From Planctomycetota bacterium (GTDB lineage Bacteria; Planctomycetota; UBA1135; GCA-002686595), in contig JAIOPM010000004.1 of NCBI GenBank assembly GCA_021413885.1, positions 23,895-87,894 on the forward strand: 64,000 nucleotides of DNA. The letters are read 5' to 3'. Of the stretch, positions 1 through 62,678 are shown piece after piece (the first letter of the stretch is position 1; each line of letters begins with the position of its first letter). Below the pieces are notes generated by a model, which was not told the origin of the DNA, ran no database searches, and worked only from the letters and a program-made list of their open reading frames with translations. The translations under genes were made by a program, and so were the position numbers.

Positions 1-414
1 GCCGTACACCGCCGGGATCTTGCGTCCGTCCGCCGGATAGAACGGGCGCGGCGTGATCGACCACTCGACCGCGGCGCCCATGTTCCACCACCAGAAGATC
101 TTCGCGCACGTGAAGGTCGGATCGCGTTCGCGCGCGAGCTCGTAGAGCTTCTTCCCGCGCACCAACGCGTTCGCTTGACGCCACAGCGCGATGTCGAACG
201 TCTCGCGATCGAACCAACCGTTGCCGACGACGCCGTGCTCGCTCGGGAGCTTGCCGGTCAACATCGTCGCTTGCGCGCTGCACGTCACCGCGGGCAGGAT
301 CGCGTTCATCGGCGCACCCGCGCCGGTCTTCGCGAGCTCGCTCAACGTCGGCGTCTCGGGCCCGAGCAGGCGGCTCGTCAACCCGACGACATCGATCAGC
401 ACGACGGGACGCAT
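1..414 (-). CDS. Alkaline-phosphatase-superfamily phosphodiesterase / nucleotide pyrophosphatase-like protein (partial, 3' end off window)
   Basis: The gene reads leftward off the window edge; only the first 138 codons are present and no stop is seen. The N-terminus MRPVVLIDVVGL has the Asp (D8) that binds the first metal in the type I phosphodiesterase/nucleotide pyrophosphatase family. PAVTCSAQATMLTGKLPSEHG (T44 the probable nucleophile) matches the family's 'P..T...+..LTG..P..HG' block. This points to a metal-dependent phosphate or phosphonate ester hydrolase; the substrate cannot be told. No signal peptide is visible, so it is probably cytoplasmic. A TAAGAT hexamer (426-431, minus strand) lies 11 nt before the ATG. 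The gene is divergent from the Rieske gene. The fold assignment is firm, the substrate unknown. Confidence 0.8.
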   Translation of the reverse strand, partial: MRPVVLIDVVGLTSRLLGPETPTLSELAKTGAGAPMNAILPAVTCSAQATMLTGKLPSEHGVVGNGWFDRETFDIALWRQANALVRGKKLYELARERDPTFTCAKIFWWWNMGAAVEWSITPRPFYPADGRKIPAVYG

Positions 415-490
415 GAGGGGCGAAGATCTTACGCGCCGAGCGTCGAACCGCGACGCGTCCGACGTGCGAGGGAATTGCTAAGATCCGCGG

Positions 491-841
491 ATGCTCTCCA
501 AGCTCTTCGGTTTCCTGCGCGGCAAGGGTGTGCTGGTCCAGGGCGTCGACAAGTTGCCCGAGGGACAGGCGAGAATCCTGTCGCTCGGCGATCCGCTCGC
601 CGGCGGCAAGCAGATCGTGCTGTGTCGGCTCGAGGGCAAGCTCTACGCGGTCGATCGAATCTGCCCGCACGAAGGCGGACGGATCAACGAAGGTCCGTTG
701 GTCGACGGCAAGTACTACGTGTGCCCGTTGCACAGCTACAAGTTCGACCCGAAGACCGGCGAGTCGATCGACATCGGCTGCAAGGCCGCGAAGACCTACA
801 AGGTCGAGGCGAAGGGCAAGGACTGCGAGATCTTCGTCTGA
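491..841 (+). CDS. Rieske [2Fe-2S] ferredoxin-like protein (NirD type)
   Basis: A small 116-residue soluble protein with both Rieske cluster motifs: C58-P-H60 and C78-P-L-H81, each followed by the usual Gly/Ser/Lys loop residues. The C-terminal part (CKAAKTYKVEAKGKDCEIFV) matches the short ferredoxin/NirD class, not the quinol-oxidoreductase Rieske subunit. It probably passes electrons to an oxygenase or reductase encoded elsewhere; no partner is adjacent. An extended -10-like TGCTAAGAT (476-484) ends 6 nt before the ATG and there is no Shine-Dalgarno, so the transcript may be leaderless. It stands alone, with a convergent gene behind it. Confidence 0.9.
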   Translation: MLSKLFGFLRGKGVLVQGVDKLPEGQARILSLGDPLAGGKQIVLCRLEGKLYAVDRICPHEGGRINEGPLVDGKYYVCPLHSYKFDPKTGESIDIGCKAAKTYKVEAKGKDCEIFV

Positions 842-851
842 GCCGGTGAGC

Positions 852-3386
852 TCAGTCGCGGAACTCCGCGCGCGCGTTGGCGTCGGTGGTGACGACGACT
901 TCGATCGGCGAGCCGATCGCTCGCGCCGAATGTCCGTCGCGGTCGGAGTGCTCGCGCCACTCGACTTCGACGACGTACGCGCCCGGCAACAGCGCGTCGA
1001 AGAACGCCGTCGGCGGCGAGCGCTTCGGCTGGATCTGCGCGCTCACGGAAACGCTCTCCGACGGATCCTTCGAACGGACGCGCGCTCGATACTCGCCGCC
1101 CGGCGGCGGCTCGCCTTGGTGCGCGACCACGACGATCAAGCGACCTTGCCGCGGCACGACGACGCGCAGGTCGCCGGCGAGCGGATCGACCTCGCGTTCA
1201 TAGGCTCGACCGCCGATCGTCAACGTCGCGGTGACGGACTCGCCGGGCAGATCGCGAAGCTGGAACGTGTTCGGCTTGCGGCGGCGCACCGAGAGCTCGG
1301 GATTCTGCGGCGCGCGGACCTTGCACTCGTCGGTGGGCACCTCGGTGCCGAGATCGTCGACGACTTCGAGTAGGAGCTCGTGCGCCGCGTGCAGGCGGAA
1401 CTCGGCGGGCTCGGCGTCGAGCACCAGCTCGTAGTCGGCGATCTCGATCGGCGAGAAGCCGTCGCGGTCGACCTGCAGCGCGACCTTACCCGGCGCCAGG
1501 CCTTCGAAACGGAATTCGCCGGCGGCGTCGGTCAGTTCGGATTCGCTGGTGCGCAGCGAGCGCAGGTTGAGGCGCACTTTCGCGCCGGCGAGCGACGCAC
1601 CCAGTTCGTCGACGACGCGGCCCGCGAACGCGCCGCCGGGGGAGTCGAGCTTCACCGCCTCCTCGCGCACTTCGGTCGTACCGAGCGTGATCTTGCGTTC
1701 CTCGAGCGTGCGTCCGAGCCCGTCGACGATGCGCAACAGGAACGGGCTCGCGAGATCGCTGAGCACCGCGCGTCCCTTGTTGTCGCAACGGAAGCGCGTC
1801 ACGACGCCGCCGCTGTCGCGCAACTTGAAACTGCTCTCGCTGTTGGTGCCGCCGCTCTCGACGTGCGTGCGCGACGGCCGCGTCGGATCGTCGCCGAGGA
1901 AGAGCACGTCGGACCGCGTCAACACGAACCTGCGGCGCGGGATCGGCGCGCCGGTCGCGTCGACGAACGCGAGCGTCCACACGTTGGTCGGTTGCAACAC
2001 GACTTCGGTCGGAGCCTCGCCGCCGATCGGAACGTCTTGCGGATGGAAACCGAGCTTGCCGACCGAAGCCGTGTCCGCTTCCGAGACGTGGACGATCGTC
2101 GCGCGTCCTTCGGCGTCGCTCTTCGCGCGCGCTTCGCCCGCGAGCACGATCGCGCCTTCGATCGGCTTGCCCGCCGGATCGTGGATGACCACCGAGAAGC
2201 CGCGCGCCGGCGCGAGCACGACGTCGCCGACGTCCCAACGCGAAACCATCGTCGCCGCTTGAATCTCGATGTCGACCGACGCCGCGTTCTCGCCGCGATC
2301 GATCGTCAGTCCGACGCGCTCGGTGGGCGGCAGATCCGCGGCGCTCGCGAGCTTCCCCGGGCCGAAGCCTTTCGGCAGATCGAGCAACATCCGGAACCGA
2401 CCCTCGCCGTCGCTGATCGCCTCGCCGTTGAAGTCGGAGACCGTGCGGCTGCGCGAGCGATCGGGATTCGCGTAGGCCAACCACCCCGAGAGCCGCGCCT
2501 CGGCGACCGCGGTGCCGTTCGACTCGACGATGCGTCCGGTCACCGCCGGCAGCGCGAGCAGGTCGACCGCGATTTCGGACGCGAGCTGCGTCAGCCGCAC
2601 CGCGCGGCGTTCGAGGATCGCACCCGGCCCGACGACCGCGGACACCACGTACGCGCGCGGCACGTCGATGCGACCGCTGAACGGATCGGTCAGGCCGCGG
2701 AACACGAAGTCGCCGTGCACATCGCACTTCGCCTGCAAGCGCGTCGCGTCGTAACCGTCGAGCCCGAGGAACGTGCGCACGTTTGGCGCGAACGACGCGG
2801 TGTCGAAGAGCGTGCGTTCGGAGACGAGCTCGAACTCGAGCTCGACGTTCGGCTCGGCGCCGTCGACGCGCGCCTTGCCGCGCAGGATGTCGCGCGCGGG
2901 CTCGTCGAGACGCCGCCTGCCCGCGGTCAGATCGGCGTCGGCGATCCACGGGACGAAATCCGCGCCGCGGACGAGCACACGTCCCGCGCCCTTGCCCGCG
3001 CGGAGCTTCGCGACTCCGGCGTCGTCGCTCTCCGCGTTGTCGACGAGACCGGAGTCGTCGAACGCGCGCACCTCTGCGCCGGCGAGCGGTGTTCCGTCCG
3101 GCGCGTGGAGTTCGAGCTCGAGCGGCGGCGGAGGCGGCGCGTCGAGCATCTCGGAGCCCGCGGGCACGATCTTCGTGCGCTCGTCCTCGCCCGACGGCCG
3201 CGCGTCGACCACCAACTTCGGCGGAGGCTCTTCGCGCCGCTTCGGCGTCGTCGCGAGCTCGCGCGACGTTCCCGCGACTTCCATCGGCCGCGTGGGTTCC
3301 GAACGCAACGTCCACCAGGCCGCGGCTGCGATGCCCAACACGAGCATCACGAGCACCCACGGTCCGATTCGCGCTCTGTCGGTCAT
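852..3386 (-). CDS. Membrane-anchored carboxypeptidase-regulatory-like repeat protein (paralogue 1)
   Basis: This 844-residue protein has one N-terminal membrane segment (about residues 9-26, WVLVMLVLGIAAAAWW) and is otherwise extracytoplasmic. It contains several beta-sandwich modules of the carboxypeptidase-regulatory-like type. Typical signatures are 'PDGTPLAGAEVRAFDDSG', 'DPAGKPIEGAIVLAG' and 'VDELGASLAGAKVRL', each followed by 'DAEGR' or 'AAGEFRFEGLAPG'. Such modules are structural or adhesive in many secreted proteins; no catalytic site is visible. It resembles the next gene upstream (3439-5919) in layout, so the pair is probably a tandem duplication. TAGACT (3395-3400, minus) lies 8 nt before the ATG. 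Function unknown beyond a cell-surface or periplasmic location. Confidence 0.85.
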   Translation of the reverse strand: MTDRARIGPWVLVMLVLGIAAAAWWTLRSEPTRPMEVAGTSRELATTPKRREEPPPKLVVDARPSGEDERTKIVPAGSEMLDAPPPPPLELELHAPDGTPLAGAEVRAFDDSGLVDNAESDDAGVAKLRAGKGAGRVLVRGADFVPWIADADLTAGRRRLDEPARDILRGKARVDGAEPNVELEFELVSERTLFDTASFAPNVRTFLGLDGYDATRLQAKCDVHGDFVFRGLTDPFSGRIDVPRAYVVSAVVGPGAILERRAVRLTQLASEIAVDLLALPAVTGRIVESNGTAVAEARLSGWLAYANPDRSRSRTVSDFNGEAISDGEGRFRMLLDLPKGFGPGKLASAADLPPTERVGLTIDRGENAASVDIEIQAATMVSRWDVGDVVLAPARGFSVVIHDPAGKPIEGAIVLAGEARAKSDAEGRATIVHVSEADTASVGKLGFHPQDVPIGGEAPTEVVLQPTNVWTLAFVDATGAPIPRRRFVLTRSDVLFLGDDPTRPSRTHVESGGTNSESSFKLRDSGGVVTRFRCDNKGRAVLSDLASPFLLRIVDGLGRTLEERKITLGTTEVREEAVKLDSPGGAFAGRVVDELGASLAGAKVRLNLRSLRTSESELTDAAGEFRFEGLAPGKVALQVDRDGFSPIEIADYELVLDAEPAEFRLHAAHELLLEVVDDLGTEVPTDECKVRAPQNPELSVRRRKPNTFQLRDLPGESVTATLTIGGRAYEREVDPLAGDLRVVVPRQGRLIVVVAHQGEPPPGGEYRARVRSKDPSESVSVSAQIQPKRSPPTAFFDALLPGAYVVEVEWREHSDRDGHSARAIGSPIEVVVTTDANARAEFRD

Positions 3387-3438
3387 CGCTCGACAGTCTA
3401 GGACCGAGCGCGAGCTCCCGCACTCGCCGTCGTCGCGT

Positions 3439-5919
3439 TCACGGAGTCAGAGCGATGTTCGTCGTCTGCTCCGCGACGACGCGGAAGCGCACCGGCACGC
3501 GCGTCGCGTCGGCGTCGCTGCACTCGAAGCACGCTTGGTAGTCGCCGGGCAGCAGACGTTCGAGGCTCGCGGCGGTGCTGCCGAACGGGAAGTACGCGCG
3601 TTGCGGCGCGAGGTTGCCGTCGACATCGCGCACCGCGACCGAGAGCGGCGTGCCGCGCTGCGTCCACGCGTCGCGGCTCTCGTTCGACGCGAACGTGATC
3701 TGGAATTCGGCGCGTCCATGGTCGGGGACGGGGACGACGAGCTCGCTCTCGTCCGCGCCGAGCGCTCGCGCGTACGTCGCGCCCGCGACTTGGACCTCGA
3801 CGCGCGCCGGTTCGCGCGGCGCGACGTCGGTCGCGTAGCCGGAGGCCGGAAGGCGTTGCAACAAGACCTCGGGCGCCGTGTCCCACGCGATGCGCAACGC
3901 GTCGAGCGGCACGCCGCGGCCGCTGCGATCCTCGGCGCGAACTTGCAGTGCGCGCGACGCGAGCAACGTGAAGTGGAAGTGCGCGTCGCCGACGCCTACC
4001 GTGCGCTCGACGTCGAAGCTCGGCGCGAAGCCGCTCTTCTGGATCGAGAACGTCACCGAGCCTGGCGTTGCGTAGGGAACTTCCACGGTCCCGTCGGCGC
4101 CGGACTGCAGCGTGACGACGCTGTCGCCGCGTTCGAGGTAGAGCGTCGCGTCGTGCAGCGGCCGCTGCGCTCCGTCGGTGACAACGCAATGGAGCGTCGA
4201 CGTCGGACGCGTCAGCGCGAGGTCGAAGGTCGCGCGTTCTTCGGGCCCGAGCCTGACGTGGAAACGCTCGAGCTCGTCCTCGAACGCGCTGACCGCGACG
4301 AGTTCGATCGGCACGTTCGCGTTGACTTCGCACAGGACGAGCTCGCCCGCGCGATCCGCGACGACGCGGTCGCCGTTCGCTTCCGGTCGCGCCTCGACCA
4401 CGCCGAGTCCGACGTTTGCGGCAAACGCGGTGTCGTCGACGGCCGCCGCGAAGACCGCCGCGCGATCGAGCGCGATCCGCAGGCCGCTCGCCGGAGTTCC
4501 GTCGATTTGGCGCAAGCGCAAGTGCAGGCGATTGGTCGGCGCGAGTTCGACGACGATCGGCTCCGAACTCGCCTTCGGCACGTCGACGCGCGCGGCGCGG
4601 AAACCGAGCGCGGCGACGTTCGCTGCCGGCGTTCCGTACAGCGGCCGTTCGAGCTCGACGCGCCCGCGTTCGTCGGTGTCGGCGTGGTGCCCGCCGTAGG
4701 TCACGGTCGCGCCGCGGATCGGAGCGCCGGCGCGCGCGCGAACCTCGAAGCGAACTCCCTCGAGCACTTCGTCGGAGAAGGCGAACTCGCCGAGGTCGAA
4801 GCTCGAGCGCATCTCCGCGGCGAGCCGGATCGTCTCCTGATGTCCGGTGCGCCCGGGCTCGCGCAACCGCACCGAAACCGCTGCGAGGTCGGGCCAACTC
4901 GGCTTCGACGCTCCGTCCGCGCGCATCGCTTCCGGCAACCAGATCGCGAACGAACCGTCCGCGGCGGTGCGCGTCGGTAGGTACGGAACGTCCGATTCAG
5001 CCAGCGGCGAGCCACCGGTCACCGCGTACCTCGGCATCAACGCGACCGAAAGTCCGCCGATCCCGCGACCGCCGGCGCGATCGACGACGCGCCCGGTCAA
5101 ACGCGGTCGTTGGAAAACGTCGAGCCCGAGATCCGCGCGCGCTTCGCCGATGCGCACGCGGTTCTTCGGACGCGCTTCCGCCGGCGGATCGGCGGCGACC
5201 AACGTGCATTCGGGGCCGACGCGCAACGTGCCGCTCCACGGTTCGGAGAGGCCTTCGAACCGAAAGCGACCGCCGGCGTCGGCTTGTAACGTGCGATGGA
5301 TCGGATCGAGCCATTCGGCTTGCACCGCCGAGCGCACCGCGTCGGGCAGTCCGTCGTCGACGAACCACGGACGGTCGCTCGCGAGCTCGAGGCTGACGAT
5401 GCGATCGAGGCGCGCGTCGAGCGGCCGCAACACGCCCGCGAGGACTCCGCCGGGGAGCTCGACGCGCGTCGGCGCGGACGCGAGCTCGACGGCGCGAAAA
5501 TCCGGCGCGAGGTTCGGGCCGGCGATCAGCAAGCGCGTGCTCCGTTCGCCGCACGCGAGGTGCACGTGTCCGTTCGCGTCGGTGACGTCGCGGTCGAGCA
5601 GGCGAGCCGTGCCGAACGCGGCGACCGTCGCGCCGATCACCGGCCGTCCGCCGACGAAGGTGAAGACGAACTCGTGCTCCGGGCCGGTCGCGGACGCGCG
5701 CTCGATGTCGGAGCGCGACGTGTCGGGCGATCCGGGATCGATCGGTAGCGCGAGAGGCTCGGTTCTCGCGCTTCGCGTCGGAGCGGCGTCGCCGTTCGCT
5801 CGCGCCGCCGTCGTCGGTGCGCGCGGCGTGAACAGTCGCGCGCCGAGCGCGCCGACGCCGGCGAGCAAGGCCGCCGCGAGGGCGATCCAGGAGACGGTGT
5901 GCTTGCGTCGGGGGCTCAC
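3439..5919 (-). CDS. Membrane-anchored carboxypeptidase-regulatory-like repeat protein (paralogue 2)
   Basis: An 826-residue protein starting at GTG, with a basic N-terminus (SPRRKH) and one membrane segment at about residues 11-29. The rest is beta-rich, with repeated carboxypeptidase-regulatory-like turns such as 'GGRPVIGATVAAFG', 'DRAGGRGIGGLSVAL', 'ARAGAPIRGATVTYGG' and 'AADGSFAIW'. The order of domains parallels the downstream paralogue at 852-3386, 52 nt away in the same direction; they are probably cotranscribed and carry out related extracytoplasmic structural roles. No enzyme motif was seen. The gene is divergent from the arsenic operon. Confidence 0.85.
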   Translation of the reverse strand: MSPRRKHTVSWIALAAALLAGVGALGARLFTPRAPTTAARANGDAAPTRSARTEPLALPIDPGSPDTSRSDIERASATGPEHEFVFTFVGGRPVIGATVAAFGTARLLDRDVTDANGHVHLACGERSTRLLIAGPNLAPDFRAVELASAPTRVELPGGVLAGVLRPLDARLDRIVSLELASDRPWFVDDGLPDAVRSAVQAEWLDPIHRTLQADAGGRFRFEGLSEPWSGTLRVGPECTLVAADPPAEARPKNRVRIGEARADLGLDVFQRPRLTGRVVDRAGGRGIGGLSVALMPRYAVTGGSPLAESDVPYLPTRTAADGSFAIWLPEAMRADGASKPSWPDLAAVSVRLREPGRTGHQETIRLAAEMRSSFDLGEFAFSDEVLEGVRFEVRARAGAPIRGATVTYGGHHADTDERGRVELERPLYGTPAANVAALGFRAARVDVPKASSEPIVVELAPTNRLHLRLRQIDGTPASGLRIALDRAAVFAAAVDDTAFAANVGLGVVEARPEANGDRVVADRAGELVLCEVNANVPIELVAVSAFEDELERFHVRLGPEERATFDLALTRPTSTLHCVVTDGAQRPLHDATLYLERGDSVVTLQSGADGTVEVPYATPGSVTFSIQKSGFAPSFDVERTVGVGDAHFHFTLLASRALQVRAEDRSGRGVPLDALRIAWDTAPEVLLQRLPASGYATDVAPREPARVEVQVAGATYARALGADESELVVPVPDHGRAEFQITFASNESRDAWTQRGTPLSVAVRDVDGNLAPQRAYFPFGSTAASLERLLPGDYQACFECSDADATRVPVRFRVVAEQTTNIALTP

Positions 5920-6032
5920 GCGTGGGTCGCGACGCGCTTAGGCATCGACGACGCGACGGGTACGAGCGTAATCGTTTTGTTGTGAGCGGCGAATCCGTGC
6001 GGCAGGAGCGCCGCGGCTCCGGTTCGGTTCAT

Positions 6033-6064
6033 AGATTGACCAATCTCGATGGATGGGCTAGCAT
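6033..6064 (+). promoter_or_regulatory. arsR promoter with overlapping inverted repeat (candidate ArsR operator)
   Basis: TTGACC (6037-6042) and TAGCAT (6059-6064) are separated by 16 bp and form a plausible sigma-70 promoter. An inverted repeat AGATTG-AC-CAATCT (6033-6046) covers the -35 box, where a repressor would block polymerase. The -10 ends 8 nt before the ATG at 6073, so the message would be almost leaderless. That ArsR is the ligand is inferred from position. Confidence 0.55.
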
Positions 6065-6072
6065 CGGAACCC

Positions 6073-6408
6073 ATGGCACGCACGAAGACCGCCGACGCCG
6101 AGTGCTGCGCCCCGACGGGGCGCGCCGGCGGACGCGCCACGCGGCCGTACGTGCAGCTCTGCAAGGCGCTCGCCGACGAGACGCGCTTGGAGGTGCTCGG
6201 CATGCTCGCCGAAAGGGCGGGGGAGCTCTGCGCGTGCGAGATCGAGGCCCATTTCGATCTTTCGCAACCGACGATCTCCCACCACCTGCGGGTCCTGCGC
6301 GAAGCGGGCCTGATCCGTGCCGCGCGTCGCGGCACCTGGAACTACTACTCCCTCGAACGCGGAGCCCTCGACCGGCTCGGCGAGCTGCGTGCGCTGCTCA
6401 CCGGTTGA
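6073..6408 (+). CDS. arsR: ArsR-family arsenic-responsive repressor
   Basis: A 111-residue winged-helix repressor of the ArsR/SmtB family, expected to leave its operator when it binds As(III). The core has the family motif ELCACE (C53, C55) at the start of the recognition region, followed by LSQPTISHHLRVLREAGLI. A vicinal pair C11-C12 near the N-terminus, with C55, matches the three-cysteine arsenite site described for Corynebacterium ArsR. I chose the ATG at 6073 because a promoter -10 ends 8 nt upstream; an in-frame ATG at 6049 would lie inside the promoter. It is the first gene of arsR-arsM-channel-arsC and is presumably autoregulated. Confidence 0.9.
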   Translation: MARTKTADAECCAPTGRAGGRATRPYVQLCKALADETRLEVLGMLAERAGELCACEIEAHFDLSQPTISHHLRVLREAGLIRAARRGTWNYYSLERGALDRLGELRALLTG

Positions 6409-6434
6409 CGCTTTCGTGTCCATAACATCGAGAA

Positions 6435-6444
6435 AGATCGATCT
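6435..6444. promoter_or_regulatory. 10-bp perfect palindrome directly before arsM
   Basis: AGATCGATCT is self-complementary and abuts the arsM ATG at 6445. It shares an AGAT/ATCT core with the inverted repeat upstream of arsR. It may be a second ArsR-type site, or it may act in the translation-initiation region; this is position-based inference only. Confidence 0.3.
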
Positions 6445-8583: not shown

Positions 8584-8614
8584 CGGTGACCTCATTCGGC
8601 TTGCGAGACGCGAC

Positions 8615-9814: not shown

Positions 9815-9919
9815 TCACCCGCCTTCCTCGACGCATTGGAGGAAAACGCGGCGCCGAATTGAAGGCGGGGCTCGGAATCCCCAGGCTCGTCGCGCCTCCA
9901 ACTCCGGGAGAAGCACGCG

Positions 9920-10369: not shown

Positions 10370-10375
10370 ATCGGC

Positions 10376-13679: not shown

Positions 13680-13692
13680 CTCGATTGACTCA

Positions 13693-16048: not shown

Positions 16049-16050
16049 AC

Positions 16051-16821: not shown

Positions 16822-16843
16822 CGGCGGACCGCGAGTCGTCCAC

Positions 16844-24404: not shown

Positions 24405-25207
24405 AACGTGTCGTGCTCGTGCGACCGACCGGTCCGCGCAACGTCGGCGGCGTGATGCGCGCCGTGGCGAACTTCGGGCCGGCCGAGCTGTGGCTCGTGC
24501 GCCCCGAGCGCCCGTCGATGTTGATCCATCCGGACTTCGATCAGATGTCCCACGGCGTCGAGAACGTGCGCGAACGCATCCGCGTCGTCGATTCGCTCGA
24601 CGAGGCGCTCTCCGAGTGCAACCTGACGATCGGCTTCACCGCGCGACCGCGCGGCGAACGCTGGCGCGCCGATTGGCGCGAGATGGTCGAAGAGACGAGG
24701 CCGACGGCGCTCGCCGAGGATCAACGTCTCGCGCTCGTCTTCGGCAGCGAGTGGAACGGCCTGACCGACGACGAACTCGATCGCTGCCAACACGCGTCGC
24801 GCTTGCCGACGGCCGAGGAGCACACGTCGCTCAACCTCGCGGTCGCGGCGAGCATCGTGCTCTACACGCTCTTCGAAGGCCGCGGTTCGTACCGTCACGA
24901 AGGCGGCGCGCGGATGCTCTCGTTCGAGGAGCGCGCTTTCTTGAAGCAGCACCTGATCGCAGTGCTCGCGCACAAAGTCGCCCGCGGCGACGCGACCGTT
25001 CGCGACGTCGAAGCGTCGATCGAACGCGTCTTCTCCCGCGCGCCGCTCGAGAGCCGTGACGCGCGTGCGTGGCACAAGCTGATGCGCGCGCTCGGCAGCG
25101 ACCTCGAGCCCTCCGACTTCGACCTCCAGCCGAATCAGAAGGGCGAACGTCGCGACGGCGCCCTCGAGCGCAATCGGAAGAAGCGCGAGCCGGGAAGCGA
25201 GCGCTAG
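24401..25207 (+). CDS. SpoU/TrmH-superfamily RNA 2'-O-methyltransferase, TrmJ-like
   Basis: A 268-residue SPOUT methyltransferase. Motif 1 is RPTGPRNVGGVMRAVANFG (8-26), motif 2 is LVFGSEWNGLTDDEL and motif 3 is LPTAEEHTSLNLAVAASIVLY; these make the trefoil-knot SAM site. The C-terminal helical extension suits TrmJ, which methylates the ribose of tRNA position 32, but another RNA target is possible. It is coupled by ATGA to the small membrane protein before it. The TAG stop doubles as the start of a TAGAAT hexamer for the next gene. Confidence 0.85.
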   Translation: MKRVVLVRPTGPRNVGGVMRAVANFGPAELWLVRPERPSMLIHPDFDQMSHGVENVRERIRVVDSLDEALSECNLTIGFTARPRGERWRADWREMVEETRPTALAEDQRLALVFGSEWNGLTDDELDRCQHASRLPTAEEHTSLNLAVAASIVLYTLFEGRGSYRHEGGARMLSFEERAFLKQHLIAVLAHKVARGDATVRDVEASIERVFSRAPLESRDARAWHKLMRALGSDLEPSDFDLQPNQKGERRDGALERNRKKREPGSER

Positions 25208-25210
25208 AAT
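25205..25210 (+). promoter_or_regulatory. -10-like TAGAAT 6 nt before the pduO-type gene
   Basis: TAGAAT overlaps the stop of the preceding gene and is followed by CCCACG and the ATG at 25217, with no Shine-Dalgarno. This is the same geometry seen at about a dozen other starts in the window. It suggests an internal promoter giving a leaderless message. Confidence 0.35.
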
Positions 25211-35290: not shown

Positions 35291-35334
35291 CGCTCCAGCG
35301 TAGGAGCCCGAGCGACGGCTCGCCACGGCGAGCG

Positions 35335-40404: not shown

Positions 40405-40464
40405 GCAGCTCGCCGACTCTAGGGAGCGCAGCGAGCCTGTTCCAGGACCCGCATGCCGAGAGCG

Positions 40465-45277: not shown

Positions 45278-45321
45278 GGAAGCGCGACCCTAGGCGACTT
45301 CCCGCGATCGCTCACGGGGGC

Positions 45322-46380: not shown

Positions 46381-46407
46381 GGCGTGCGCGCAGTTCCTGC
46401 GTGGGAC

Positions 46408-52786: not shown

Positions 52787-52863
52787 GGCGAGGAGCGTAT
52801 CGAGCGACCTGCTCCCGTGCATCTCGCTCTTCCGAGCGAAGCGCTAGACTCCGCGCACTCGCC

Positions 52864-53346: not shown

Positions 53347-53362
53347 GGCGCGAGCGCGGAGC

Positions 53363-54559: not shown

Positions 54560-54767
54560 CGCCGGAGAATACGCGACGGCGCTCGCGCCGTCTCCGCCGC
54601 GCCCGGGTCGTCGCGCGGCGCGCAACGCCGCGCCGATGAAATCGCGGCCGGGTGCGCGGCTCGACGGATCGGCGGTTCCTCTCGTAACCTGGTGCGCATG
54701 GCGTCGCCGAGTCGGAACCGTCGCTCCGGGCGTCGCTCGAACGGCCCGGATTCGTAGAGTGAGTTCC

Positions 54768-57700
54768 ATGGCGTCGTCGCGTCCGCTGTTCGTCGTGTCC
54801 TGCGTCACGGTGTTCGGCGTCGTCGCGGCGCTCGGCGCGGCTTCGAGCGGGGATCGCCCGGCCGCGGCTCGCGAGCCCGTGCGCTACGACCGCGACGTGC
54901 GGCCGATCCTGTCGGACCGTTGCTTCAAGTGTCATGGCTTCGACGCGGCGAGTCGCAAGGCGGAACTCCGGCTCGACGTCGCGGAGAGCGCGTACGCGGA
55001 GCGCGACGGTGGTCATGCGCTCGTCCCCGGCGACGTCTCGGCGAGCGCAGTCCTCGCGCGCATCGCGACCGACGATCCCGACGAGCAGATGCCGCCGGTC
55101 GACAGTCACAAACGCAAGCTCTCCGCCGACGAAGTCGCCGTCGTGCGCCGTTGGGTCGAAGAGGGCGCGAAGTACGAAGCGCATTGGTCGTTCGTCGCGC
55201 CGGTGAAGAGCGCGGTGCCGACAACGGAGCACGCGACGCGCAACGAGATCGACGCGTTCGTGCTCGCGAACCTTGAGCGTCACGGACTCGCCCCGAGCGC
55301 CGAAGCGCCGCGCGACGTGCTCTTGCGTCGGCTCTTCCTCGATCTCACCGGTCTGCCGCCGACGCCGGAGGAACTCGACGCCTTCCTCGCCGACACGCGG
55401 CCCGATGCGTACGAGCGTCGCGTCGATCAGCTGCTGAACGAAGAACCGTACAAGAGCCGCTACGCCGAGCGCATGACCGCGCCGTGGCTCGACCAAGCGC
55501 GTTACGCCGACACCAGCGGCATCCACATGGACGCCGGCCGTCAGATCTGGCCGTGGCGCGATTGGGTGCTCGCCGCATTCCGCGACGACTTGCCGTTCGA
55601 TCGTTTCGTGATCGAGCAACTCGCCGGCGACTTGCTGCCGAACGCGACGCAGGACCAGAAGATCGCGAGCGGCTTCAACCGCAACCACGTCACCACCGAC
55701 GAAGGCGGCGCGATCGACGAGGAGTACAAGGTCGAGTACGCGGCCGATCGCGTGAACACGACCGGCGCCGTGTTCCTCGGGCTGACCGTCGGTTGCGCGC
55801 GCTGCCACGATCACAAGTTCGATCCGGTCACGCAGGACGAGTACTACTCGCTGTTCGCGTTCTACGACTCGATCGAGGAGCCCGGCCTCTACTCGCAGGT
55901 CCCCGACGCGAACCGAGCGCTCGAGCCGTTCCTGCGCGTGCCGTCGAAGGCGCAGGAGGAGAAGCTCGCCGCGTTGGTCTCGGACCTCGCGACCGCGACG
56001 AAGGCGCTCGACGAACCGGTGCCCGGCGAGGACGAGCAACGCGCGAAGTTCCTCGACGACGTACGCGCGCGCGCCGGACTGCGTTGGGCCGAGGCTTCGC
56101 TCGCGAGCGCGTCGTCGAGCGGCGGCGCGACGTTGACGATCCAGCCGGACGGTTCGGCGCTCGCGAGCGGTACGAATCCGCCGATGGACGACTTCACGTT
56201 GACGCTGCGCACGCAGGCGACCGACCTGCGGCTCGTCGCGCTCGAGGCGTTGACCGACGAACGTCTGCCGAACGCGCGCGTCGGGCGCGCGCACAACGGC
56301 AACGCGGTGTTGACCGACTTCGAGGTCGACGCGGTTTCGCTCGTCGATGCTTCGAAGACGGAGCGCGTCCACTTCACGTGGGCCGTCGCCGACTTCGAGC
56401 AAGCGAACGGCGACTTCCGCGTGCTCAACACGATCGACGCGTCGGAGTCGAGCGGTTGGGCCGTCGACGGACACAATCGCACCGACGGACGCGCGGCGCT
56501 CTTCCTCGCCGATCGGCCTTTCGGTTTCGCGGGCGGCACCGAGTTGCGCGTCGTGCTGCGCCATCGCTCGATGTACACCGAGCACACGCTCGGCCGCGTG
56601 CGCGTGTCGTTCGCGTCGATCGCGGACGACGGGATCGCGCTCTTGCCGACCGCGTCGAGCGGTTGGTACCTCGCCGGACCGTTCGAGACCTCGCGCGAGA
56701 AGGTGTTCGACACCGCGTTCGGGCCGGAGAGCGTCGCCCAGCTCGATCTCGCGGCGAAGTTCGATGACAAGGGGGCCAAGGGCTGGAGCTTCGTCGAGAC
56801 GTTCGCCGACGACCGCGCGAACGGCGAGTTGCCGCAAGGCTCGAACGCGAGCTACGTCGCGAAGCGCGTCGTCGCGCCGAGCGCGCGCAAGCTCTCCATC
56901 TCGCTCGGCAGCGACGACGGCGCGCGCGTCTTCGTCGACGGCCGCGAGGTCTTCCAGAAGAACGTCGATCGCGCGCTCGCCGCGGATCAGGACGCGTTCG
57001 ACGTCGAGCTCTCGGCCGGCGAGCACGCGATCGTCTTCAAGATCGTCAACACCGGCGGCCAAGGCGGTTTCTATTGGCACGCGAAGGAACGGACCGGCGA
57101 ACTCGCCGGCGATCTCGTGTGGGCCGCGGGGCCGAAGACGGCGCTCGCCGCCGAGCGCGAAGCGCGTTTCGTCAAGGCGTGGCGCGTCGCCGAGTCGCCC
57201 GGTTTCCGCGCGGCGCTCGGGCGCGTCAATGATCTCGCGAAGAGCATCGCCGACGTCGAGGCGAGCGTGCCGTTGACGATGGTGATGAAGGAACTCGCGA
57301 TGCCGCGCGACACCTACGTCCTGACGCGCGGTCAGTACGACAAGCCCGACAAGAATCGCAAGGTCGAGCGCTCGGTGCCGCGCGCGCTCGGAACTTTGCC
57401 CGCCGACGCGCCGAAGGATCGTCTCGGTCTCGCGCAGTGGTTGGTGTCGAAAGACAATCCGCTGGTCGCGCGCGTCGCCGTCAATCGGTTGTGGGAGCTC
57501 TTCTTCGGCGCCGGTCTCGTGCGCTCGAGCGAGGACTTCGGTCATCAAGGCGAATGGCCGTCGAATCCGGAGTTGCTCGATTGGCTCGCGGTCGAATTCC
57601 GCGACGGCGATTGGGGCGTCAAGTCGATGGTGAAGCGCATCGTCACCAGCGCGACGTACCGTCAGAGTTCGCACGTCGATCCGAAGGCGCGCGAGCTCGA

Positions 57701-58364
57701 TCCCGACGACCGTTGGCTCGCGTACTACCCGCGTCGTCGCATGGGCGCCGAGCAGATTCGCGATCAAGCGCTCTACGTCGCCGGCCTGTTGGTCGAGAAA
57801 TTCGGCGGCCCGTCGGTCAAGCCGTACCAACCGGAAGGTCTGTGGCAGGAAGTCGCGATGCTGCAGTCGAACACGCGCGTCTACGAGCGCGGCATGGGCG
57901 ACGATCTGTGGCGCCGCAGCCTCTATACGTATTGGAAGCGCGCGTGTCCGCCGCCGTCGTTGATGACGTTCGACGCGCCGACGCGCGAGTTCTGCACGAT
58001 CCGTCGGCCGTCGACCAACACGCCGTTGCAGGCGTTGGTGCTGTGGAACGACGAGCAATACGTCGAAGCGGCGCGCGCTCTCGCCGAGCGGTCGTTGCGC
58101 GGGAGCGGGGACGAGCGCGCGAAGCTCGCGACGATGATCCGCCGCGCGACGGCGCGTCTTCCGAACGACGAAGAGCTCGCGCTCTTCACCGAGGCCCTCG
58201 GCGCGTTCCGCGAGCGCTTCCGCGCGGCGCCCGACGACGCGAAGAAGTTGGTCGCGGTCGGCGAGCGAGCGACCGACATGGAGCTCGATCCCGTCGAGCT
58301 CGCGGCGTGGGCGATGGTCGCCGGCGCGTTGCTCGATCTCGACGCGACTCTCTCACAGAGCTGA
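54768..58364 (+). CDS. DUF1549/DUF1553 planctomycete-type cytochrome protein
   Basis: A 1198-residue exported protein with signal (PLFVVSCVTVFGVVAALGAA). Order: planctomycete cytochrome c domain with C52-F-K-C55-H56 and 'LVPGDVSASAVLARI'; DUF1549 (about 150-370), containing LTGLPPTPEELDAF, WLDQARYADTSG and a second heme-like CARCHDHKFDP; a beta-sandwich/PA14-like insert (about 420-790, 'GSDDGARVFVDG'); DUF1553 (about 880-1190, NPLVARVAVNRLWELFFG, FGHQGEWPSNPELLDWLA). Such proteins always pair with a DUF1501 gene, as here: it starts 2 nt after this stop. Role proposed for the family: surface polysaccharide or sulfated-glycan processing; unproven. TAGAGT lies 7 nt before the ATG. Confidence 0.94.
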   Translation: MASSRPLFVVSCVTVFGVVAALGAASSGDRPAAAREPVRYDRDVRPILSDRCFKCHGFDAASRKAELRLDVAESAYAERDGGHALVPGDVSASAVLARIATDDPDEQMPPVDSHKRKLSADEVAVVRRWVEEGAKYEAHWSFVAPVKSAVPTTEHATRNEIDAFVLANLERHGLAPSAEAPRDVLLRRLFLDLTGLPPTPEELDAFLADTRPDAYERRVDQLLNEEPYKSRYAERMTAPWLDQARYADTSGIHMDAGRQIWPWRDWVLAAFRDDLPFDRFVIEQLAGDLLPNATQDQKIASGFNRNHVTTDEGGAIDEEYKVEYAADRVNTTGAVFLGLTVGCARCHDHKFDPVTQDEYYSLFAFYDSIEEPGLYSQVPDANRALEPFLRVPSKAQEEKLAALVSDLATATKALDEPVPGEDEQRAKFLDDVRARAGLRWAEASLASASSSGGATLTIQPDGSALASGTNPPMDDFTLTLRTQATDLRLVALEALTDERLPNARVGRAHNGNAVLTDFEVDAVSLVDASKTERVHFTWAVADFEQANGDFRVLNTIDASESSGWAVDGHNRTDGRAALFLADRPFGFAGGTELRVVLRHRSMYTEHTLGRVRVSFASIADDGIALLPTASSGWYLAGPFETSREKVFDTAFGPESVAQLDLAAKFDDKGAKGWSFVETFADDRANGELPQGSNASYVAKRVVAPSARKLSISLGSDDGARVFVDGREVFQKNVDRALAADQDAFDVELSAGEHAIVFKIVNTGGQGGFYWHAKERTGELAGDLVWAAGPKTALAAEREARFVKAWRVAESPGFRAALGRVNDLAKSIADVEASVPLTMVMKELAMPRDTYVLTRGQYDKPDKNRKVERSVPRALGTLPADAPKDRLGLAQWLVSKDNPLVARVAVNRLWELFFGAGLVRSSEDFGHQGEWPSNPELLDWLAVEFRDGDWGVKSMVKRIVTSATYRQSSHVDPKARELDPDDRWLAYYPRRRMGAEQIRDQALYVAGLLVEKFGGPSVKPYQPEGLWQEVAMLQSNTRVYERGMGDDLWRRSLYTYWKRACPPPSLMTFDAPTREFCTIRRPSTNTPLQALVLWNDEQYVEAARALAERSLRGSGDERAKLATMIRRATARLPNDEELALFTEALGAFRERFRAAPDDAKKLVAVGERATDMELDPVELAAWAMVAGALLDLDATLSQS

Positions 58365-58366
58365 CG

Positions 58367-59830
58367 ATGAACCCGCTCGAAGAACGGCACCTCGGGCTCA
58401 CGCGGCGGCGGTTCTTCGCGTCGTCGGCGAAGACGTTCGGCGCGGGGCTCGGGTCGCTCGCGATGTCGTCGTTGCTCGGGGATTCGCTGTTCGCGCGCTC
58501 GACCGATGCCAACGGCGCACCGCGCGGCCCGCACTTCGCGCCGAAGGCGAAGCGCGTCATCTACATGCACATGGAGGGCGCGCCGAGTCAGCTCGACCTC
58601 TACGACTACAAGCCCGAGTTGCGCCGACGCTTCGACCAAGATCTGCCCGACTCGATCCGCCAAGGCCAACGCCTGACCGGGATGACCAGCGGCCAAACGC
58701 GCTTCCCCGTCGCGCCGTCGATCTTCAAGTTCTCGCGCTACGCGAACAACCAGGACGGCGTTTGGTTGAGCGAGCTCCTGCCGCACACCGCGAGCGTCGC
58801 GCACGAGCTCTGCGTCGTGAACTCGATGCGCACCGACGCGATCAACCACGAGCCCGGCATCACGTTCTTCCAGACCGGCAACCAACAGCCCGGTCGTCCG
58901 TCGTTCGGCGCGTGGACGAGCTACGGCCTCGGCAGCATGAACGCGAACCTGCCGACGTTCGTCGTGTTGATCACGCAAGGCCTCGGCAACATGCAGGCGC
59001 TCTCCGCGCGCTTCTGGGGTTCGGGTTTCCTCCCGAGCGAGCACCAAGGTTGCAAGCTGCGCAGCTCCGGCGATCCGGTGCTCTACCTGAAGGATCCCGA
59101 CGGTGTGACGCGCGCGGATCGGCGGCGCATGCTCGACCTCGTCGCGGCGATGAACGAGCGCGAGTCCCGCGCCAGCCTCGACCCCGAGATCGACGCGCGC
59201 ATCGCGCAGCACGAGATGGCGTTCCGTATGCAGATGTCGGTGCCCGAGCTCGTCGACTTCTCCGACGAGGACGAGGAGACGCTCGCGCTCTACGGCGACG
59301 ACGCGCGCAAGCCCGGCACGTTCGCGTCGAACTGCTTGCTCGCGCGCCGCCTCGCCGAACGCGGCGTGCGCTTCATCCAGCTCTACATGCGCGGTTGGGA
59401 CCAACACAACGGCCTGCCGAACGAGATCAAGCTCCAGGCGAAGGCCGTCGACCAAGGTCAGGCCGCGTTGATCAAGGATCTGCGGCGACGCGGTTTGCTC
59501 GACGACACGCTGATCCTGTGGGGCGGCGAATTCGGGCGCACCGTCTACAGCCAAGGCACGTTGACCGAGACCGACTACGGTCGCGATCACCATCCGCGGT
59601 GTTTCTCGGTGTGGCTCGCCGGCGGCGGGATCAAGCCGGGCATCACGTACGGCAAGACCGACGAGTACAGCTACAACATCGTCGAGAACCCGCTCGAGGT
59701 GCACGACCTCCACGCGACGATGCTGCGGTGTCTCGGGCTCGATCACTTGCGGTTGACGTACTTCCACGAAGGCCGCGACTATCGGTTGACCGACGTGTCG
59801 GGGCGCGTGGTGCCCGAGCTCCTGAGCTGA
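58367..59830 (+). CDS. DUF1501 Tat-exported sulfatase-like protein
   Basis: A 487-residue protein of the alkaline-phosphatase-like fold. The N-terminus has a twin-arginine signal (LTRRRFFASSAKTFGAGLG). Family blocks: VIYMHMEGAPSQLDLYDYKP, ELLPHTASVAHELCVVNSM, QTGNQQPGRPSFGAW, LYMRGWDQHNGL and LWGGEFGRTVYSQG with DYGRDHHPRCFSVWLAGGG. Family partner of the DUF1549/1553 gene, translated after a TGA-CG-ATG junction. Metal-dependent hydrolase activity is expected from the fold but not shown for the family. Confidence 0.94.
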   Translation: MNPLEERHLGLTRRRFFASSAKTFGAGLGSLAMSSLLGDSLFARSTDANGAPRGPHFAPKAKRVIYMHMEGAPSQLDLYDYKPELRRRFDQDLPDSIRQGQRLTGMTSGQTRFPVAPSIFKFSRYANNQDGVWLSELLPHTASVAHELCVVNSMRTDAINHEPGITFFQTGNQQPGRPSFGAWTSYGLGSMNANLPTFVVLITQGLGNMQALSARFWGSGFLPSEHQGCKLRSSGDPVLYLKDPDGVTRADRRRMLDLVAAMNERESRASLDPEIDARIAQHEMAFRMQMSVPELVDFSDEDEETLALYGDDARKPGTFASNCLLARRLAERGVRFIQLYMRGWDQHNGLPNEIKLQAKAVDQGQAALIKDLRRRGLLDDTLILWGGEFGRTVYSQGTLTETDYGRDHHPRCFSVWLAGGGIKPGITYGKTDEYSYNIVENPLEVHDLHATMLRCLGLDHLRLTYFHEGRDYRLTDVSGRVVPELLS

Positions 59831-59832
59831 CG

Positions 59833-61413
59833 ATGGCGCCGCCGTTTCCCGCGTGGCTCGAGGTGTTCGGTCGCTTGCACCCGCTGGTGTTGCACTTGCC
59901 GATCGGACTGTTCGTCGGGTTGGCGGTGGTCGAGTTGCTTGGCGCGTTCGGCGTGTTCGAACTTCCGCGCCGCGTCACCGGCGTCTGGGTCGGGCTCGCG
60001 GCGTTGAGCGCCTGCGCGACGGCGGCGAGCGGTTGGGTGCTCTCGCACGAGAGCGGCTACGGCGGTGAGACGCTCGAGCGGCACGAGACGTTGGGTTTGA
60101 TCGTCGGCGGGCTCGCGCTCGTCGTCTCCGCGTTGCACTGGATGACGCGCGGCGGTTCGCGCGTCGGCGTCGTGCGCGTCTATCGCTTCGTCCTCTTCGT
60201 CGCCGCCGCGGTGCTCGTGCCGACCGGACATTTCGGCGCGACGTTGACGCACGGCGAGGACTTTCTGCTCGAGCCTCTGCGCGAAAAACCCGCGCCGCCG
60301 GTCGAAGCCGCGCCCGTCGCGTCGACCTACGCAACCGTGATCGCGCCGATCCTCGCGTCGCGTTGCACCGCGTGCCACGGCGAGTCGAAGCACAAGGGCA
60401 AGCTCGCGCTCCACACTCCGGAAGCGATCGCGAAGGGCGGCGAGTCGGGACCGCCGATCGATCGCGCGCGGCCGAGCGAGAGCGAGATGCTGCGTCGCTT
60501 GAAGACGCCGCTCGACGACGACGATCACATGCCGCCCGGCGAGAAGCCGCAGCCGACCGCGGAAGAATCGGCCGCGCTGGAAGCGTGGATCTCGGCCGGT
60601 GCGCCGTTCGAAGGTGTCGTGAACGGCGTCGCAACGACGAGCGCGCGCACGAGTGCGATCGAAACACCGACTCCGCCGAAGCCGCCCAAGCCGATTGGCC
60701 CGTCGGACGACGCACTCGCCGCGTTGTCGACGGCCTTCATCCACGTCGAAACCGTCGAGCGCGAGACGCACTCGCTGTGGATCGATTTCTCCGCGGTTGC
60801 CACCGACACGGACGACGCGGCGGTCGAGCGCCTGGTCGCGCCGGTCGGCGAATTCGTCGCGGAGCTGACGCTCGCGCGCACGAAGGTCGGAGCCGGAGCG
60901 CTGGCGCTCGCCGCGAAACTCCCGCGCTTGCGCCGTCTCGATCTACGCGCCGCGCCGATCGACGACGCGGCGCTCGCGAAGCTCGCCGGTCACGCCGCGC
61001 TCGCGGAACTCGTGCTCGCGCAGACGAAACTGACCGACGCGTCGGTCGACACGTTGCTCGCGCTGCCCGCGCTCACGCGCGTCTTCCTGTGGAGGAGCGG
61101 TGTCGGCGCCGAAGGTCTCGCGCGTTTGCGCGCCGCGCGTCCGACGCTGATCGTCGACGCGGGCGACGAGCCCGACTCCGCGCCGACGAACGCGGAGACC
61201 GAGATCAAACTCACGAGCGACGCGCCGCTGCCCGGCGCCGCGCCGATCGTCGCTTCGCTCGTGCCGATCAACACGAAGTGCCCGGTCTCCGGCTCGCCGA
61301 TCAACCCGAAGTACTCGGTGGTCCACGACGGCAAGGTGATCGGCTTCTGCTGCCCGAACTGCCCGAAGGAGTTCTGGGCCGACCCGACGAAGTTCCTGTC
61401 GAAGCTCGAGTGA
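59833..61413 (+). CDS. DUF2231-like membrane protein fused to cytochrome c, leucine-rich repeats and YHS-like domain
   Basis: A 526-residue protein. Four membrane helices (about 18-38, 50-70, 86-105, 117-135) form a DUF2231-like domain, with HPLVLHLPIG at its start and conserved His at H16, H21 and H84. A planctomycete cytochrome c domain follows with C178-T-A-C181-H182 and 'DHMPPGEKPQPTAEE'. Then leucine-rich-repeat-like strands (about 300-430, 'LPRLRRLDLRAAPIDDAALAKL'). The C-terminus (473-526) is YHS/TRASH-like with CPVSGSPINPKYSVV and FCCPNCPKEFWADP, which may bind a metal. Third gene of the cytochrome operon (TGA-CG-ATG again); its stop lies inside a long inverted repeat. Confidence 0.88.
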   Translation: MAPPFPAWLEVFGRLHPLVLHLPIGLFVGLAVVELLGAFGVFELPRRVTGVWVGLAALSACATAASGWVLSHESGYGGETLERHETLGLIVGGLALVVSALHWMTRGGSRVGVVRVYRFVLFVAAAVLVPTGHFGATLTHGEDFLLEPLREKPAPPVEAAPVASTYATVIAPILASRCTACHGESKHKGKLALHTPEAIAKGGESGPPIDRARPSESEMLRRLKTPLDDDDHMPPGEKPQPTAEESAALEAWISAGAPFEGVVNGVATTSARTSAIETPTPPKPPKPIGPSDDALAALSTAFIHVETVERETHSLWIDFSAVATDTDDAAVERLVAPVGEFVAELTLARTKVGAGALALAAKLPRLRRLDLRAAPIDDAALAKLAGHAALAELVLAQTKLTDASVDTLLALPALTRVFLWRSGVGAEGLARLRAARPTLIVDAGDEPDSAPTNAETEIKLTSDAPLPGAAPIVASLVPINTKCPVSGSPINPKYSVVHDGKVIGFCCPNCPKEFWADPTKFLSKLE

Positions 61414-61524
61414 GACGTACGGAGCCAGCCTCGCCTCGGCCGTTTTCACCGGCCCGCGTCCTTCCAGTTGCTACGTCGTCGGCCGGCGAAAACGGCCGAG
61501 GCGAGGCTGGCTCCGTACGTCTCA
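61411..61524. repeat. Long perfect inverted repeat carrying the stop codons of two convergent genes
   Basis: Left arm 61411-61447 and right arm 61488-61524 are perfectly complementary over 37 bp (TGAGACGTACGGAGCCAGCC..., ending GTTTTC). After one mismatch, CCGGCC (61449-61454) pairs with GGCCGG (61481-61486). The loop is 26 nt. The first TGA is the stop of the gene at 59833 and the last TCA is the stop of the convergent gene at 61522. It should terminate transcription from both sides. The arm recurs at 63968-64000, so it is a dispersed element. Confidence 0.92.
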
Positions 61525-62406
61525 GTAGCCCGCGGTCCAATCGACGACGTTGAGCAGCGGCTCGCCCTTCGCGAAGCGGCGCAAGTTTTCCGCGAAGAGC
61601 GCGTCGGCGCGTTCTTGCGTCAACGCGGCCTGAGCCGCGACGTGCGGCGTGATCAAGACGTTGTCGAGCTGCCACAGCTCGTGATCGGCCGGCAGCGGTT
61701 CGGGATCGGTGACGTCGAGGCACGCGCCGCCGAGGTGCTTCGACTTCAGCGCGTCGATCAGCGCCGCGGTGTCGCACACCTTGCCGCGCGCGATATTGAT
61801 CAGGATGGCGCCGGGCTTCATCGCGGCGAACGCTCGTGCGTCGAACAGATGCTCGGTCTCGGGCGTCAGCGGCACGCAGAGCACGACGACGTCGGACTCC
61901 GGCAGCAACTCGAAGAGCTTGTCGGCGAGCTCGACGCGATCGACGAACGCCGGCGCGTCGGTTCCGCTACGGCGCGTCGCGACGACGCGCATCTCGAAAC
62001 CCTTGGCGCGCCGCGCCACTTCGGTGCCGATGCCGCCGAGGCCGACGACGCACAGCGTGCGGCCCGCGAGCGCGAACGGCTCGTGCTCGCCGCCTTCGCG
62101 ATTCCAACGGCCTTCGCGTTGCGCTCGCCACGAGCTCGGCAGATCACGCGAGAGCGCGAGCAACATGGCGAAGACGTGATCGGCGATCGCCGGTCCGTGC
62201 ACGCCGCGCAAGTTGCAGAAGACGATCTCCGAGCGCGCCTTCAATGCGTCGAGGCCGAGGTAGCGATCGACGCCGGCGCTCATCGCCTGCACGTAGCGCA
62301 GCTTCTTCGCCGCGGAGAGGAATTCGCTCGACACGAACCGCGCGTCGCAACCGTCGGCTTCGGCGGCGCGCTTCAGCGCTTCTTCGCGCGAGAGGTTCGC
62401 GAGCAA
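61522..62406 (-). CDS. D-2-hydroxyacid dehydrogenase (truncated reading frame)
   Basis: The readable frame from a TTG at 62406 gives 294 residues of an NAD-dependent D-2-hydroxyacid dehydrogenase. The Rossmann loop is GLGGIG (122-127). Catalytic residues R207 (NIARGKV), E236 (DPEPLP) and H255 (TPHVAAQ) are all present. The first strand of the substrate domain is missing: codons for ELLFLAGEISEDEQDRLYAL continue in frame upstream to a TAG at 62515-62517, and beyond it to an ATG at 62658. No proper start exists in between. Either this TTG starts a shortened protein, or the gene is broken or read through. Confidence 0.8.
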   Translation of the reverse strand: MLANLSREEALKRAAEADGCDARFVSSEFLSAAKKLRYVQAMSAGVDRYLGLDALKARSEIVFCNLRGVHGPAIADHVFAMLLALSRDLPSSWRAQREGRWNREGGEHEPFALAGRTLCVVGLGGIGTEVARRAKGFEMRVVATRRSGTDAPAFVDRVELADKLFELLPESDVVVLCVPLTPETEHLFDARAFAAMKPGAILINIARGKVCDTAALIDALKSKHLGGACLDVTDPEPLPADHELWQLDNVLITPHVAAQAALTQERADALFAENLRRFAKGEPLLNVVDWTAGY

Positions 62407-62658
62407 GCGGACGTTCGGCGCGAGCGCGTAGAGTCGGTCCTGCTCGTCCTCGGAGATCTCGCCGGCGAGGAAGAGGAGCTCCTTCTTGCCGCCCTCGGTT
62501 TCGAGCGCGACGCGCTAGCCGCGGTCGGAGCCGATCGCCTGCGCGTCGGTCAGGCTCGCGACCGGTGTCGGCGGCGCGACCTTCTCCGCGGCGCGACACG
62601 CGGAGACGGCGACGAGCAGGAACGCGAGCGACGCGACACGACGCGGAGTGGCTTGCAT
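62407..62658 (-). pseudogene. 5' part of the dehydrogenase gene: lipoprotein signal, amber codon, N-terminal strand
   Basis: From the ATG at 62658 (TACGAT 6 nt upstream) the frame gives MQATPRRVASLAFLLVAVSAC, a lipoprotein signal with lipobox VSAC, then a linker of 26 residues ending IGSDRG. A TAG stands at codon 48 (62515-62517). After it, the same frame continues RVALETEGGKKELLFLAGEI into the dehydrogenase without further stops. The intact product would be a lipid-anchored, exported dehydrogenase. A single-base nonsense change (for example CAG to TAG), a sequencing error or suppression could explain it. Confidence 0.7.
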
Positions 62659-62678
62659 CCGCGCATCGTAGCCCGCGG

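Follow-up and report, generated by a model that had tools for sequence, protein, structure and literature searches.

TAnnnT hexamers six to nine nucleotides before start codons predict leaderless messages in a planctomycete genome

Do many messages of a planctomycete begin at the start codon itself? This question was raised by a 64,000-nt stretch of DNA from Planctomycetota bacterium (GenBank assembly GCA_021413885.1, contig JAIOPM010000004.1, positions 23,895 to 87,894 of the forward strand; hereafter the window). A sequence-only reading of the window had listed twelve operon-first genes that lack a Shine-Dalgarno (SD) site and carry a TAnnnT hexamer 5–11 nt before the start codon, and had proposed widespread leaderless transcription. 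The assembly holding the window comprises 4.74 Mb in 62 contigs. We fetched 1.57 Mb beyond the window, and the gene calls cover 1.64 Mb of this assembly (ca. one-third). The results indicate, with a probability that we put at about 0.9, that TAnnnT is a predicted sigma70-type −10 element placed at a fixed 6–9 nt before the start codon, and that many presumed operon-first messages would be leaderless.

Genes were called using our own program, which evaluates coding hexamers, start codons, and gene overlap and is blind to upstream motifs. Of the 1283 genes obtained, 1272 could be classified by their upstream neighbour. The presumed operon-first class contained 907 genes (364 divergent genes, 379 same-strand genes behind a gap of at least 60 nt, and 164 behind a gap of 20–59 nt), and the remaining 365 genes, with a same-strand gap below 20 nt or an overlap, were regarded as internal. 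The number of bases between the hexamer and the start codon is given as d (d6 for 6 nt). Twenty rounds of dinucleotide shuffles served as the background for the called starts.

At d4–11, TAnnnT occurred at 66 sites in the 364 divergent genes against 6.8 in the shuffles, at 27 sites in the 379 genes with a gap of at least 60 nt against 5.7, and at 27 sites in the 164 genes with a gap of 20–59 nt against 2.6. The divergent genes had 13, 13, 16, 10, 7, and 6 sites from d6 to d11 and two in all from d0 to d5, showing a sharp onset at d6. Thus, the genome-wide count against shuffled controls, which the sequence-only reading had suggested, gave a strong peak within −7 to −13 on about a third of the genome. 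The distance range of 5–11 nt claimed earlier stands for d6–11 and fails for d5, which had a single site in 1272 genes. The peak, the fixed distance, and the concentration at operon-first genes all support the leaderless interpretation.

To allow for uncertain starts, any ATG or GTG start scoring within 10 of the best coding score (near-best start) was also accepted, and eight distance sets between d14 and d45 were used as controls. TAnnnT at d6–9 then preceded 131 of the 907 presumed operon-first genes: 68 of 364 divergent genes, 34 of 379 with a gap of at least 60 nt, and 29 of 164 with a gap of 20–59 nt (control sets, 11–18, 7–16, and 0–7, respectively). Among internal genes, 9 of 365 had such a site. 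Subtraction of the mean of the eight control sets left ca. 101 genes, corresponding to 11% of the operon-first genes, and ca. 2% of the internal genes; the d10–13 set, which is excluded from the 11% figure, showed an increase as well (29, 18, and 6 in the respective operon-first classes). A reversed-pattern control was not matched in composition (119 vs 115 at d6), and the distance controls were used in its place. It is therefore likely that about 11% of presumed operon-first genes are leaderless as predicted by the strict TAnnnT pattern. "Widespread" describes this density, not a majority of genes.

We then examined the specificity of the motif. In the 528 genes that were divergent or had a gap of 20–59 nt, TANNNT was found at 75 sites, compared with 10.9 expected (z 19.4). 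Among its nine one-base variants, TANNNA alone was clearly raised (7 vs 1.8, z 3.9). The association was also seen without gene calls: ATG stood 6–9 nt after TAnnnT 145 times, compared with 55.4 expected from d14–49 (z 12.0), and ranked first of the 64 trinucleotides at this position. CAT ranked second (110 vs 54.2), as would be expected where C precedes the ATG. Conversely, TANNNT ranked first of the 64 XYNNNZ families before ATG. A free expectation-maximization motif search was run on the 22 nt before divergent genes. With a zero-order background, it shifted towards a GC motif and returned mixture fractions of 0.77–1.0 everywhere, control regions included. This approach was dropped, and the estimate above rests on the distance-shifted controls.

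Other features of these sites are in keeping with a promoter. Matches of at least four bases to TTGACA peaked at a spacer of 17 nt from the hexamer (8 of 131 genes), with 0–3 genes at each of 33 other spacers. A logo built from 119 aligned sites, of which 98 precede an ATG, has G at position −2 and C at position −1 relative to the hexamer. Immediately ahead of the start codon, C-richness was similar in TAnnnT genes and other first genes, and C at −2 from the start codon was somewhat commoner in the TAnnnT genes. At the level of sequence, the predicted promoter part of the leaderless reading is well supported, and we infer leaderlessness from the position of this promoter.

SD sites followed the opposite trend across gene classes. 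The SD 4-mers GGAG, GAGG, and AGGA, sought in −20 to −5, were present in 16 of 131 genes with TAnnnT at d6–9, 199 of 776 other first genes, and 157 of 365 internal genes. The internal count stood against 38 in a control region, and the divergent genes had 77 in 364 (control region, 38). The 3′ end of the 16S rRNA carries an intact, normal anti-SD sequence. Because SD sites are frequent at internal genes and the anti-SD has been retained, both modes of initiation are likely in use in the cell.

The sigma70 RNA polymerase starts ca. 6–7 nt downstream of the −10 element. With such a start past the hexamer, a site at d6 would place +1 on the A of the ATG, and sites at d7–9 would leave a leader of 0–3 nt. 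The abrupt lower limit at d6 is consistent with a rule that bars transcription from starting within the codon. By analogy with other bacteria, ribosomes loaded with initiator tRNA would bind the 5′-terminal AUG of these messages without SD pairing.

To examine whether the arrangement is retained among relatives, we searched 400 kb of a genome of the same genus (G001) for orthologs, defined one-way as best hits with at least 40% identity and at least 60% coverage after removal of overlapping hits. Eight of the 131 TAnnnT genes had such an ortholog, and six of the eight kept TAnnnT at d6–9, five of them being orthologs of the twelve cited genes. By comparison, the arrangement was found in 2 of 25 orthologs of other operon-first genes. 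The kept sites precede in-frame starts close to the aligned position, and the inner bases and the spacer have changed (TACGCT at d7 to TAGACT at d8, for example). No ortholog of a TAnnnT gene was available for comparison in a genome from another planctomycete family (G320).

The same pipeline was applied to control genomes. Sites at d6–9 numbered 95 per 907 presumed operon-first genes in the studied genome (ca. 7.6 in shuffles), 20 per 223 in the same-genus genome (4.1), and 20 per 225 in the first 400 kb of Pla86 (CP036296.1; 3.3), a member of the same family as the studied genome. We take Pla86 to be a cultured strain of Engelhardtia mirabilis, a species name present in the taxonomy. There was no signal in the genome from the other planctomycete family (3 per 248 vs 3.3) or in 200 kb of E. 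coli K-12 (6 per 132 vs 11.6). Deinococcus radiodurans MP1 had 8 sites in 87 operon-first genes against 2.1, and by gene calls its density is similar to that of the studied planctomycete. In Pla86, SD sites were found in 16 of 98 divergent first genes against 16 in the control, that is, without excess, and in 23 of 52 close internal genes against 9.

Several observations weigh against the leaderless interpretation. The called starts are computed. Internal genes have a small excess of TAnnnT at d4–11 (9 sites in 365 genes vs 3.1 in shuffles), and one of the twelve cited sites, that of gene 25217, overlaps a stop codon. The −35 signal is weak, and in the divergent genes alone it amounts to 4 of 68 at the 17-nt spacer, with 0–3 at other spacers. 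Two of the eight same-genus orthologs have no motif, the single testable ortholog in Pla86 does not keep it (0 of 1), and neither does one further ortholog of gene 54768 (locus L082). Of four other hexamer families counted in the same 528 genes, ATNNNA was mildly raised (15 vs 7.2). In the test without gene calls, A/T-rich families were also raised before ATG, with TTNNNG second at z 9.5 (1.3-fold, vs 2.6-fold for TANNNT). This test gave a ratio of just 1.30 (59 vs 45.3) for D. radiodurans MP1, in which leaderless genes are known, and 0.95 for E. coli; alone, it is weak on small samples with a richer background.

The alternative that survives best accepts the promoters as real and supposes that translation begins at a downstream in-frame start, or that transcripts begin several bases further upstream, giving messages with short leaders. 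Sites at d10–11, such as those before 414 and 40404, would leave a leader of ca. 4–5 nt, and four of the twelve cited starts are not the first choice of the caller. However, it is ATG itself to which the motif keeps its distance, with an abrupt onset at d6 that would be pointless if translation started elsewhere, and in orthologs TAnnnT still precedes a start close to the aligned position. We therefore regard short leaders as an unlikely explanation. A translational role of TAnnnT, as an A/U-rich non-SD binding site for the ribosome or S1 instead of a promoter, is considerably less probable. The mild rise of some other A/T-rich families before ATG fits such a signal, and the available text of one earlier study, which included one planctomycete genome, did not separate leaderless from S1 signals there (PMC5397173). 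A site of this type should also occur at internal genes, which need translation too, and should tolerate A/T variants; TAnnnT was scarce at internal genes (the 9 of 365 above), TANNNA was the only variant clearly raised, and the weak −35 at exactly 17 nt goes with TAnnnT. Chance combined with selective listing, or with TAG and TAA stops of preceding genes, could draw on the facts that only matches had been listed and that 25217 is a stop-codon case, and is refuted by the counts, as divergent genes, which have no same-strand predecessor, carry 66 sites against 6.8 and in only 2 of the 131 TAnnnT cases in 1.64 Mb does the hexamer coincide with the stop of the called gene before it. These considerations leave leaderless messages with a −10 element fixed before the start codon as the preferred explanation.

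All twelve hexamers cited in the window are present at the distances given for them, and none of the twelve genes has GGAG, GAGG, or AGGA in −20 to −5, in agreement with the reported absence of SD sites. Six of the genes diverge from a neighbour on the opposite strand. Another five follow a same-strand gene at a distance of 20–71 nt, and their operon-first status is therefore presumed. Gene 25217 (plus strand, cobalamin adenosyltransferase) begins only 9 nt after the preceding gene, whose stop codon is the TAG within TAGAAT (25205–25210, 6 nt before the ATG); this doubtful site should therefore be dropped from the list. Eight of the twelve starts are the first choice of the motif-blind caller. 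Starts 3386, 45277, 52786, and 62658 lie inside a called frame, and their coding scores fall short of the best start by 2.4, 7.0, 1.0, and 3.4, respectively. Since the earlier list gave matches only, we also counted the window by called starts: TAnnnT at d5–11 was found in 7 of the 34 genes presumed to be operon-first and in 2 of the 17 internal ones.

Among the predicted −10 elements on the plus strand, TAAGAT (479–484) lies 6 nt before ATG 491 of a Rieske domain protein, whose same-genus ortholog has TAGCAT 8 nt before its ATG, and TAGCAT (6059–6064) lies 8 nt before ATG 6073 of a protein with an ArsR-type helix-turn-helix, whose ortholog has TACACT 9 nt before the ATG. TAGAGT (54755–54760) lies 7 nt before ATG 54768 of a planctomycete cytochrome-type protein (PSCyt1/PSCyt2/PSD1). 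The three nearest of 78 loci to this protein are Planctomycetota metagenome-assembled genomes with 73–77% identity (Pla86, 54%); together with the placement of Pla86 in the same family, this identifies the organism as a planctomycete. On the minus strand, TAGACT (3395–3400) lies 8 nt before ATG 3386 of a protein with a carboxypeptidase-regulatory-like domain, and the same-genus best hit of this gene (49% identity) has TAGAAT 9 nt before an ATG. TAGGGT (45287–45292) lies 9 nt before ATG 45277 of a LigB-type dioxygenase (ortholog, TAGTCT 6 nt before an ATG), and TACGCT (52794–52799) lies 7 nt before ATG 52786 (ortholog, TAGACT 8 nt before the ATG). TATTCT (54566–54571) lies 6 nt before ATG 54559 (minus strand), and a homolog of this gene with 52% identity (locus L083) has TATCCT 6 nt before the ATG. 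The other minus-strand elements are TAAGAT (426–431) 11 nt before ATG 414, TACGCT (35297–35302) 6 nt before ATG 35290 of a protein kinase with tetratricopeptide repeats, TAGAGT (40416–40421) 11 nt before ATG 40404 of a patatin-like protein, and TACGAT (62665–62670) 6 nt before ATG 62658.

In the divergent pairs 414/491 and 54559/54768, both partners carry TAnnnT at 6–11 nt, and the gaps of 76 and 208 nt, respectively, would each hold two back-to-back leaderless promoters. The frame of 62658 is a short, low-scoring open reading frame (best score, 13.6). Read from 62658 to the stop at 61522 on the minus strand, it contains a single in-frame TAG near 62516, which may reflect a nonsense mutation, a fault in the assembly, or a genuine break in the gene.

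To determine the distribution of the signal in the phylum, 294 Planctomycetota genomes were surveyed for a stricter pattern, TANVMT followed by SSATG, at d6–9 with d2–5 as the control; families bear anonymous labels. The studied genome gave 227 sites at d6–9 and 14 at d2–5. In its 1.64 Mb, TANVMT was depleted 2–5 nt before SSATG, with 5 sites against ca. 17 per four distances at d12–44. As the d2–5 control is depleted in the studied genome, 227 vs 14 overstates the peak and inflates the ratio there; measured against the d12–44 control in 1.64 Mb, the peak was ca. 5-fold (82 vs ca. 17). The ratio of signal to control was at least 3 in 80 genomes, below 1.2 in 134, and between these values in 80, and d2–5 clearly exceeded d6–9 in 12 of the 294. 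Among families with at least three genomes, thirteen (f71, f27, f63, f69, f1, f26, f73, f35, f47, f15, f21, f43, and f81) had a median ratio of at least 3, some of them containing single genomes with a ratio below 2. Families near a ratio of 1 included f32 (n = 16), f49 (n = 15), f23 (n = 12, one genome at 2.7), and f39 (n = 12). High background fails to explain every negative, since 41 of 180 low-background genomes had a ratio below 1.3. The TAnnnT signal is thus patchy inside Planctomycetota, being present in some families and absent in others. We lean towards repeated gain or loss of leaderless initiation at the family level, with the trait strong in the studied family and in roughly twelve more, and missing from several families that are well sampled with near-complete genomes. 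If so, Planctomycetota would offer a natural experiment on the retention and loss of leaders in bacteria, and the positive and negative families allow comparative tests of what permits leaderless initiation.

CarD was considered as a factor behind promoters with a weak −35 and was rejected. In 28 hand-chosen Planctomycetota genomes (14 with and 14 without the signal), PF02559 matches were found in 27, all within open frames of 752–2022 aa, which we take to be Mfd-like in length. No stand-alone CarD was found in these 28 genomes, whether signal-positive or signal-negative, and CarD therefore fails to account for the difference between them.

Leaderless genes are known in other phyla, and the present case is of a known kind in a little-tested clade. 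Among the papers listed in searches of the open-licence PMC literature, we found none mapping transcription starts in a planctomycete; in the accessible text of that literature, we likewise found no tests of motif, distance, operon position, and orthologs in a planctomycete family and no report of a patchy distribution in the phylum. The same-family Pla86 makes the leaderless prediction directly testable. In such genomes, gene prediction that relies on SD sites will probably place many starts wrongly: even for a motif-blind caller, four of the twelve cited starts were not the first choice.

In its available text, the study of Nakagawa et al. (2017; PMC5397173) reports for one planctomycete genome a positive non-SD bias, attributed to leaderless and/or S1-dependent initiation, with an A/T-rich region at ca. 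−20 to −10; it differs from the present analysis in having no test of motif, distance, or operon position, and the two causes are left unseparated. The accessible part of PMC10783764 mentions Planctomycetota in its anti-SD classes. PMC9581028 describes genomes with leaderless transcription predicted by GeneMarkS-2, and its main text contains no word beginning with "planct".

Close parallels come from Deinococcus-Thermus and Actinobacteria. Zheng et al. (2011; PMC3160421), in the text available, defined TA-led (leaderless) genes, with Actinobacteria and Deinococcus-Thermus among the groups. As here, these have TANNNT with an uninformative middle, occur in high-GC genomes, are enriched over dinucleotide shuffles, and have the first T ca. 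12 bp before the start codon. In contrast to our result, planctomycetes are missing from the groups listed there for 207 positive of 953 bacterial genomes, and no word starting with "planct" occurs in the main text. The same paper gives kasugamycin as reportedly leaving leaderless messages unaffected. Zhong et al. (2025; PMC12340547) described TANNNT adjoining the open reading frame as the promoter of leaderless genes in Deinococcus-Thermus; the main text likewise has no word beginning with "planct", and its Fig. S7 covers common phyla. According to that text, a −35 element at 17 bp strengthens the promoter and expression is impaired when the start codon is too near, which resembles the 17-nt spacer and the sharp edge at d6 found here; their promoters were tested with reporters in D. 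radiodurans, whereas ours are predicted from sequence. The present results would extend a Deinococcus-like density of leaderless-type genes to a phylum outside the positive groups of Zheng et al., in which the trait is patchy.

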